DNA of 37,057 nt from a virus. The notes below the pieces were generated by a model. The model made no database searches. It was not told the DNA's origin and worked only from the letters and a program-made list of their open reading frames with translations. The position numbers were made by a program, and so were the translations under genes. The stretch covers positions 1 through 37,057 of IMG/VR virus record IMGVR_UViG_3300042301_000370, one strand, 5' to 3'. Position 1 is the first letter of the stretch; every line of letters begins with the position of its first letter. Positions 4,227 through 6,774 of the stretch are shown piece after piece.

Positions 4227-5557
4227 TTCAGTTCCTCTAGTGCTATGTCAGATATGGCCCTTTTATCCTTCAGGGCGCCCCAAATGCGTTCATCTATGGT
4301 TTTGTTAGCCATCAATAGATAAACCCAAACGTTGTGCGTCTGCCCTGATCGGTGCAAGCGCCCAACGGTTTGTTCGTACAGTTCCAAGCTCCAAGGCAGG
4401 GAAACAAACACCATTTTGCAACCGCCATGCTGTAAGTTCAAGCCATGCCCTGCTGACTTAGGGTGAATCAATAGCAGTTCAATCTTGCCATCATTCCAAC
4501 GCTCAATGGCCTTGGTGTCGTTAATCGTCTGAGCGTGAGGATACCTGCGCTTGAGTTCAGCCAGTTCTTCTACGTAGTTGTAGACGATGATGGTGTTGGC
4601 GTGTTGGTTCTCCTCAATCAACTCGTCTAGCAAGTCAAACTTATGGTAACTGAACCACAGGGGCGTATTGGATACGTTGAACTTGCCTGGCGTGTCCGAT
4701 GCAGTCGTTTCGGTGTTGTAAACGAAACCTGATGACATCTGCTGTAGCTTGCCTGTTACCACACCTGCGTTAACGGCTGTAATCTGCTCAGTGCCAAACT
4801 CCACCACAAAGTCCTTCTTCATCTTTTCGTAGGGTGCTCGGTCATCTAGGTCGCACTTCATCTCAACTACATGGCATGGTGGCAGCTTGTCCTTGTATTC
4901 GCCTGCGTCTAACAGGAATGTTGCTGGTTTGATCTGTTTCATAACCGCCTCTAGTGAACCTACACGTGGCGCCCATTCGCCAAAGTCCTTGTTAACAAGA
5001 ACGAAATACTGCTGCATAAATGCGCCCTTGGCACGGCCTAACAAACTTTGATCCACAATCTTGCACTGACCAAACACATCCTCAAGACCGTTGCTAGTGA
5101 ACGAACCAGTCAAGCCCCAACGCACCTTAATCTTGTCAATCACTTTAGACAGGGCTTTAAAGCGCAGTCCTGATGAGTTCTTGAGCCTTGTCAGTTCGTC
5201 AAACACGATGCCATCAAAGTTCAAGTCTTGCGTAGCCAACCACTGTATGTTGTCGTAGTTAGTCACTACCACAGGCATATCAGACATGAGGGCGTGTAGG
5301 CGTTGCGCTGGCGTACCAACTGCAACGGCTAACGGCATACCATCCGCCCATTTAGGTTGCTCTACAGGCCACACGTCGGTGCAGACGCGCTTAGGGGCTA
5401 ACACTAGCCAACGCTTAACGATGCCACAGCGCAACATATCGGACATAGCCGTAAGGGTAATAGCCGTCTTGCCTGCGCCCACAGGCGCAAGAATCATGGC
5501 GCGGTCATGCTCGTACAAGAAGTCGGCAGCCTTCTCTTGGTAATCACGTAATTTCAT
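4223..5557 (-). CDS. SNF2-like superfamily 2 DNA helicase/translocase
   Basis: A 444-aa two-lobed SF2 ATPase. The Q-motif-like start is MKLRDYQEKAADFL, Walker A is APVGAGKTA (residues 24-32), the Walker B variant is FDELTRLKN (119-127, DELT in place of DEAH), a VTNYDNI segment lies between, and the second lobe ends with SAGHGLNLQ and motif VI QTVGRLHRSGQ (396-406). These are the features of the small SNF2-type helicases found with VRR-NUC nucleases in phage replication modules. It should move on duplex DNA using ATP, for example remodelling forks or recombination intermediates. Its start overlaps the methyltransferase stop by ATGA. Confidence 0.92.
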   Translation of the reverse strand: MKLRDYQEKAADFLYEHDRAMILAPVGAGKTAITLTAMSDMLRCGIVKRWLVLAPKRVCTDVWPVEQPKWADGMPLAVAVGTPAQRLHALMSDMPVVVTNYDNIQWLATQDLNFDGIVFDELTRLKNSSGLRFKALSKVIDKIKVRWGLTGSFTSNGLEDVFGQCKIVDQSLLGRAKGAFMQQYFVLVNKDFGEWAPRVGSLEAVMKQIKPATFLLDAGEYKDKLPPCHVVEMKCDLDDRAPYEKMKKDFVVEFGTEQITAVNAGVVTGKLQQMSSGFVYNTETTASDTPGKFNVSNTPLWFSYHKFDLLDELIEENQHANTIIVYNYVEELAELKRRYPHAQTINDTKAIERWNDGKIELLLIHPKSAGHGLNLQHGGCKMVFVSLPWSLELYEQTVGRLHRSGQTHNVWVYLLMANKTIDERIWGALKDKRAISDIALEELK

Positions 5558-6774
5558 AGCTTATCAACCATATCAATACCATCACCAATCCACTGCATCA
5601 CAGGCACAGCCATTGAGTTACCAAGGGCTTTGTAGCGCAAGCTGTCAGGCGATAGGTCTTTCTTGCGCCAAGGCACGTTGGTGTATCCGTCAGGAAAGCC
5701 TTGCAAGCGTTCGCATTCAATCGGTGTCAAACGACGCACTTTGGTGTCATAGAACAAGTGTTGATCTTGTAAAGTTGACAGCGTAAACGCTTGCTCATCT
5801 TGACCAAGGTAACCTTTACCACCGCCTTCACAGCCGCCACGTACTTTGAATGTGTGCGCTACAGCATGACGGTCAATCGTGTTCAAAGTAAAACTAACTT
5901 CTTCGTTGATGCCATCACCTTGTGGCCCGTTGTGGTCTTGACGACCAATCATAGAGCCTTGGATGCCATACGCTTCAACCAACGGTACGTTGCCACCACC
6001 TGTACCCCAACGACTTGTCACGGTCTGACACGTGTCGCCCATCTCTTTAACACGGCTGTCAGCAGGATGAGTTTCGTAAACTTTCTGCGTTAAGAAGGTT
6101 TCGCTTCCGCCACCGAGGACTCCACCGCTTGCCTTAAGGGTTCCTCCAATATCTCCTTGCTTATATTGAGCAAGGCTACTTTCAAAGAAAGCGGTAGGCT
6201 CTTTCCCCGACGCTCTGCTCGGCGCAGTATCCCTGCGCAAGCTACCGCGCTCAAATAATACTGCTGCGGGAGGGCGCCAATCTCCAAGGTATCCGACAAC
6301 AAAGACACGACGGCGTCGCTGTGCCACTCCGAAGTACTGAGCGTCAAGCACTCGGTAGGCGAACCCATACCCGAGTTGAGCCAACGCCCCGAGGAAGGAG
6401 CCAAAGTCCCGTCCTCCTGAACTTGACAAGACACCTGGGACGTTTTCCCAGACGAACCACTTGGGTCTAAAGTGGTCAAGCATTCCGCAATAGACGAGCG
6501 CCAAGTTACCACGTGGGTCATCCATTCCTTTCCTGAGTCCTGCGACTGAGAAGGACTGACAAGGGGTTCCTCCAACGATAAGGTCAACTGATCCATCTAA
6601 ACTCCAATCTTTATATTTAGTCATGTCACCATAGTTAGTGACGTCGGGGTAATGATGCGCTAAGACAGCGCTAGGGAACGGCTCAATCTCGCTGTAACCC
6701 GCAGGTTTCCAACCTAAATCGTGCCATGCAACGGTTGCGGCTTCAATGCCACTGCAAACTGATAAGTATTTCAA
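5554..6774 (-). CDS. DNA C5-cytosine methyltransferase (orphan)
   Basis: A 406-aa C5-cytosine methyltransferase with motif I (CSGIEAATVAW), the catalytic GGTPCQSFS loop (Cys72), the motif VI WENVPG, motif VIII QRRRRVF and the C-terminal RYKALGNSMAVPV helix. The variable region between about 165 and 370 should recognise the target. It transfers methyl groups to cytosines in duplex DNA and, with no restriction enzyme nearby, probably protects phage DNA from host restriction. The start is TTG at 6774, overlapping the upstream TGA (TTGA); this is the only start that keeps motif I. Residues about 60-228 are also coded in another frame by the nested ORF. Confidence 0.93.
   Translation of the reverse strand: MKYLSVCSGIEAATVAWHDLGWKPAGYSEIEPFPSAVLAHHYPDVTNYGDMTKYKDWSLDGSVDLIVGGTPCQSFSVAGLRKGMDDPRGNLALVYCGMLDHFRPKWFVWENVPGVLSSSGGRDFGSFLGALAQLGYGFAYRVLDAQYFGVAQRRRRVFVVGYLGDWRPPAAVLFERGSLRRDTAPSRASGKEPTAFFESSLAQYKQGDIGGTLKASGGVLGGGSETFLTQKVYETHPADSRVKEMGDTCQTVTSRWGTGGGNVPLVEAYGIQGSMIGRQDHNGPQGDGINEEVSFTLNTIDRHAVAHTFKVRGGCEGGGKGYLGQDEQAFTLSTLQDQHLFYDTKVRRLTPIECERLQGFPDGYTNVPWRKKDLSPDSLRYKALGNSMAVPVMQWIGDGIDMVDKL
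6090..6596 (-). CDS. Nested overlapping ORF inside the methyltransferase gene
   Basis: A 168-codon ORF on the same strand as the methyltransferase but in another frame, lying entirely inside it. Its ATG at 6596 has a GGAG 5 bases upstream (GGAGTTTAGATG). The product is Ser-rich at the N-terminus and ends with a basic helical block, ACAGILRRAERRGKSLP (residues 118-135). I recall this block in phage proteins annotated as hypothetical near DNA methylases, but I could not check that here. If the memory is right, both frames are under selection. Alternatively the ORF is only a chance opening imposed by the methyltransferase codons. Function unknown. Confidence 0.55.
   Translation of the reverse strand: MDQLTLSLEEPLVSPSQSQDSGKEWMTHVVTWRSSIAECLTTLDPSGSSGKTSQVSCQVQEDGTLAPSSGRWLNSGMGSPTECLTLSTSEWHSDAVVSLLSDTLEIGALPQQYYLSAVACAGILRRAERRGKSLPLSLKVALLNISKEILEEPLRQAVESSVAEAKPS

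Follow-up and report, generated by a model that had tools for sequence, protein, structure and literature searches.

A conserved +1-frame open reading frame inside phage C5 cytosine methyltransferase genes is very probably a second gene selected as protein

The question raised by this locus is whether one stretch of phage DNA encodes two selected proteins at once and, if so, what the second of them might do. The window, meaning the whole stretch of DNA analysed here, is a 37,057-base IMG/VR virus record from a tailed phage, in which a P22-like portal, a terminase, a family A DNA polymerase, a DUF2800/PD-(D/E)XK protein and an SNF2-type helicase were recognised. A C5 cytosine-specific DNA methyltransferase (406 aa, TTG start; PF00145, E 2.1e-53) is encoded on the minus strand at positions 5554 to 6774, with the helicase directly downstream and the other replication genes starting upstream on the opposite strand. 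Fully within this gene, at offset +1 and spanning methylase codons 60-228, lies a reading frame of 168 codons plus stop (6090 to 6596, minus strand), exactly where the first-pass annotation had placed it. Its ATG (6594 to 6596) is preceded by an in-frame TAG codon and, 5 nt upstream, by the Shine-Dalgarno-like GGAG at 6602 to 6605 (both minus strand), and the basic block ACAGILRRAERRGKSLP described by that annotation is present in its product.

We assessed whether such a frame could arise by chance. Across 400 shuffles of synonymous codons within the window methylase gene, a null in which the protein sequence and codon usage of the methylase are preserved and codon context is ignored, the longest +1 frame averaged 80 codons compared to the 168 observed, and no shuffle produced one of 168 codons. 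Over methylase codons 60-200, the window contains no +1 stop where 4.1 were expected, while its +2 frame contains 10 against 7.7 expected from shuffles. The same +1 region was free of stops in 49 of 49 close relatives (down to about 51% methylase identity, and not fully independent of one another), for which shuffles expect about 2-8, and the frequent stops that the first-pass annotation had named as an argument against the gene are therefore not found. Among lineages below 70% identity, 22 of 25 were open in the +1 frame versus 0.5 expected; the remaining three were the most divergent (P1, a Pseudomonas phage and a Sinorhizobium phage), and in these the nested frame starts later. It was noted that most of the relatives and lineages were retrieved through the methylase alone, so the openness does not reflect how the sequences were chosen, and that silent sites outside the overlap are near saturation (0.68 to 0.69 different), so that the open frame is not explained by inheritance. 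The +2 frame of the relatives carries stops as the null predicts. In ordinary C5 methylases from the same bacteria, +1 stop counts were at the null level, and the nested motif was found in none of the ordinary C5 methylases of the same genomes. A chance reading frame was rejected on the basis of the shuffles and the 49 open relatives.

The offset of the two frames allows selection on each to be separated. Because methylase codon position 3 is nested codon position 2, changes that are silent in the methylase always alter a nested amino acid. In a codon alignment of 49 sequences, the difference at fourfold-degenerate sites was 0.68 for methylase codons 1-55, 0.33 for codons 61-200 and 0.69 after codon 330, with minima inside the overlap of 0.18 (codons 121-140) and 0.09 (codons 181-200), and the synonymous suppression in the host frame was confined to the overlap. 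By these measures both frames are constrained over motifs IV-VIII. At codons 178-205, corresponding to nested residues 119-146, methylase-frame pN/pS was 1.39 and nested-frame pN/pS 0.37; outside this segment the methylase values were 0.20-0.52 (0.82 in the neutral tail) and those of the nested frame mostly above 1. From this pattern, constraint between motif VIII and the target-recognition domain acts on the nested frame rather than on that of the methylase. Given the methylase residues, the nested residues had a mean entropy of 1.14 bits compared to 2.01 expected. Invariant nested residues were L40, W72, L100, L104, E105, A119, C120, G122, I123, R126, A127, K132, P135 and L138, and the selected positions within residues 2-98 include Q3, F6, E10, L40, V55, S56, G63, P67, G70, R71, W72, S75-G78, L84, L86 and E90. 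The residue-level signal stops near residue 146, and the tail of residues 147-168 (6093 to 6158, minus strand) displays no sign of selection in either frame by pN/pS or entropy. Together, the open frame, fourfold suppression, entropy and pN/pS bear out the earlier proposal that two selected proteins are encoded by the same DNA over this interval. Carry-over of methylase constraint was rejected by the fourfold, entropy and pN/pS results along with the ordinary-methylase control. On this comparative evidence, the nested +1 frame is very probably a real overlapping gene that is selected as protein, a confidence that applies to the existence of the gene and not to its role.

We then characterized how the protein may be started and what it may look like. 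Most relatives possess an in-frame stop a few codons upstream of the nested start, followed by AGGAG and then by TTG or ATG, and AGGAG is situated 7-10 nt before the TTG or ATG in 38 of 49 relatives. The codons that make up the Shine-Dalgarno sequence AAGGAG are strongly enriched, with AAG used for 40 of 46 lysines (background 0.34) and GAG for 37 of 43 glutamates (background 0.38). An own start and ribosome-binding site are thus present in the window's clade, and at least there the nested protein is most likely initiated independently. The start is uncertain in P1-like and Firmicutes phages because the N-terminal half shows little synonymous suppression. In the AlphaFold model of the full-length product the N-terminus was poorly predicted (mean pLDDT 56), and the N-terminal part, represented in the window by residues 2-98 (6303 to 6593, minus strand), is probably largely disordered even as some of its positions are selected. 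A 56-residue C-terminal construct was modelled with a mean pLDDT of 83, about 93 in the core, and with helices at 3-10, 21-34 and 40-51. The C-terminal part, which is rich in conserved arginine and lysine, is predicted to form a basic three-helix domain, whose conserved core in the window (residues 97-146; 6159 to 6308, minus strand; nested frame the constrained one) reads LLSDxLE...YYLSxxACxGILRRAExRGKxLPxxLxxAL. Searches of Pfam, NCBIfam and PDB folds with the nested product returned no credible match giving a function; PDB fold matches such as sigma-factor domain 2 (Z 4.0, 5.7 A) were rejected as too weak. The N-terminus carries a selected Q-L-x-F peptide, with Q3, L4 and F6 conserved beyond the methylase constraint, that resembles sliding-clamp binding motifs of the QL[SD]LF type but varies at position 5.

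The distribution of the nested gene extends well beyond the window's clade. A tblastn search with the nested protein matched 140 phage records and 529 records of plasmids, most of the plasmid records coming from Escherichia and bearing, like P1, a Dam-family methylase annotation. All 267 hits of the nested profile (265 loci) and all 8 domain hits in 398 Pseudomonadota genomes fell in the +1 frame of a C5 methylase, and no standalone copy outside a methylase was found among the 265 loci or the 8 hits in those genomes. The first-pass annotation had linked the basic block to uncharacterised phage proteins near methylases; its sharing by many phages stands, while "near" needs amending, as every located copy lies inside a methylase in the +1 frame. 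That annotation had also counted a lack of homologues outside overlapping methylases against the gene, and such homologues are indeed lacking as far as was searched, yet this absence does not refute the gene because the selection is frame-specific. The core LSx(V/I)LE...KYYLSxKACxGILRRAEKRGKxLPxxLxxAL was encountered in the +1 frame of methylases from phages of Proteobacteria, Firmicutes and Mycobacterium. Fourfold differences were 0.11, 0.04 and 0.16 over residues 201-260 of P1-like Dmt, compared to about 0.4-0.6 across most of the other conserved parts, and 0.14, 0.00 and 0.15 in Firmicutes phages, compared to 0.40-0.85 elsewhere. By these comparisons synonymous suppression recurs independently in these two distant groups, and in both it is strong only over the C-terminal domain. 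In divergent genes, at least 85 codons upstream of the domain were open in 17 of 17 cases versus 3.6 expected.

In phage P1 the nested frame is found inside dmt (NC_005856, 66710-67198; L005:2719-3207), with a strongly constrained C-terminal domain and an N-terminal half that is hardly constrained. The dmt gene of another P1 isolate (OP279344, L338) measures 3042 nt, compared to 2265 nt in reference P1, and so contains extra sequence. According to PMC12707154, P1 needs dmt only when the host is Dam-negative, and PMC9024508 reports two Dmt peptides from a P1 virion preparation; the passages of these two papers considered here make no mention of a nested frame.

Nested out-of-frame genes are known in phages, including Rz1 within Rz and E within D of phiX174. 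The present case resembles both in that a second protein is encoded on the same strand, in another frame of a longer gene and from its own start. It differs in that the host gene is a DNA methyltransferase, the product has a predicted basic three-helix domain with no assigned role, the gene is found across phages of several bacterial phyla, and it is unannotated in nearly all records examined. Some annotated copies were nevertheless recovered. The family phrog_16143 (139 aa, labelled 'DNA methyltransferase') was matched by 44 of 46 nested proteins (best E 2.5e-15), although the profile match stops before the GILRRA block; its label suits the host gene and not the product, of which some annotated copies therefore exist. 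Mycobacterium phage Thibault gp104 (81 aa, hypothetical) has been annotated as a CDS, lies in the +1 frame of the phage's methylase and shares the C-terminal domain at about 40% identity, but it is short and lies behind the HNH-gene insertion that interrupts the Thibault methylase (L266). The 521-aa annotated methylase A0A8S5LZA8 in UniProt (Podoviridae sp. ctDgT26) carries the nested domain at 60% identity in a single chain, and may reflect a record that was joined or frameshifted, or else a genuine fusion. In Bacteroides phage BT638P6, the own frame of dmt reads LRDILQTGVPEKYYLSDK after motif VIII (L274:2500-2605), which resembles the nested domain. The match is weak (E 0.4), the pattern occurred in no ordinary methylase checked, and a scan for relatives found none; the segment is a possible clue to the origin of the nested domain.

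A second family of +1-frame reading frames, characterized by WPTP repeats, was found in the C5 methylases of epsilon15, Klebsiella and Rhodobacter phages, and its loci (L300-L305, L278, L282) also include Edwardsiella, Aeromonas and Salmonella phages and one bacterial genome. These frames are open for 250-394 codons (shuffle P from <0.002 to 0.04 per gene), and third-position change in the methylase is reduced in the target-recognition region. The proteins of this family, which corresponds to phrog_1008, likewise occupy the +1 frame of C5 methylases, though of other ones, and they differ in being longer, in their WPTP repeats and in a LNPxxxRWLMGxPxxW end. Weak matches to phrog_1008 were obtained for 18 of 46 nested proteins (best E 3.4e-6); that of the window protein covers residues 2-95 only, and this protein contains no WPTP repeats. 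Common ancestry of the WPTP and GILRRA families is possible. It is conceivable, at somewhat under an even chance, that phage C5 methyltransferase genes are a general home of +1-frame partner genes, with the two families as offshoots, or as recurrent inventions, of a companion arrangement that draws enzyme and partner from the same bases of a single mRNA.

With regard to mechanism, the +1 frame of the phage-type C5 methyltransferase gene very probably encodes a second protein of about 145-170 aa, whose translation most likely starts independently, at a TTG or ATG inside the methylase gene that has a Shine-Dalgarno site of its own. This protein would cooperate with the methylase, both being translated from one mRNA, and would act as a small subunit that binds DNA or a partner and directs or controls the modification of phage DNA, and the obligate nesting would coordinate production of both. 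The proposed role as a methylase partner is put forward tentatively, and we consider it a candidate that could well prove wrong. The frame could instead be a passenger of methylase conservation or a DNA or RNA element, given that methylase motifs IV-VIII constrain the same DNA and that GC-rich genes can give rise to +1 frames; this is hardly credible when nulls that retain the methylase protein and codon usage still fail to account for it, when methylase codon position 3 is the least variable, a frame-specific pattern of another reading frame, and when neither the +2 frame nor ordinary methylases depart from expectation. It is also quite improbable that the domain is the C-terminus of a frameshifted methylase, produced by programmed frameshifting after motif VIII. 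The suppression restricted to the C-terminal domain in P1-like and Firmicutes phages and the domain-containing ctDgT26 methylase in BFVD (521 aa, 60% identity) would suit such a product, but in the window's clade selection extends over the entire N-terminal half, which opens with a conserved Shine-Dalgarno site and start, and the frame upstream of the domain is open in divergent clades as well.

Two further roles take the nested protein as real. It may be a small, basic companion of the methylase that blocks a host defence as the methylase itself shields restriction sites, a role that its position hidden beside a modification enzyme would suit, as would the link between phage orphan methylases and both anti-restriction and the replication cycle drawn in PMC12707154. 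This anti-defence role appears unlikely, since the product matches no fold or family and one domain shared across phages of many phyla suits a defence-specific inhibitor less. A little less likely again is a replication adaptor, in which the N-terminal QL[TDSN][FLIM]-like peptide would bind the host sliding clamp and tether the protein, perhaps with the methylase, to new phage DNA. The conservation of Q3, L4 and F6, members reading MQLSIF, MQISMF or MQLTMF, and the replication genes neighbouring the window methylase are consistent with such tethering, whereas S or W frequently occupies the fifth position, and in Firmicutes phages and some others the motif has weakened or disappeared.

No earlier description of an overlapping gene inside DNA methyltransferases was found in the open-access literature, to which our search was largely confined. 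If the nested frame is translated, annotation of well-studied phages, among them P1 with its copy inside dmt, and of hundreds of phage and phage-plasmid records has missed a selected gene. Deleting a methylase gene of this kind would then have eliminated two proteins, and the resulting knock-out phenotypes would need to be re-read. As an example of two proteins encoded on the same bases, the nested gene would be unusually old and widespread, and suited to the study of how overlapping genes originate and persist.
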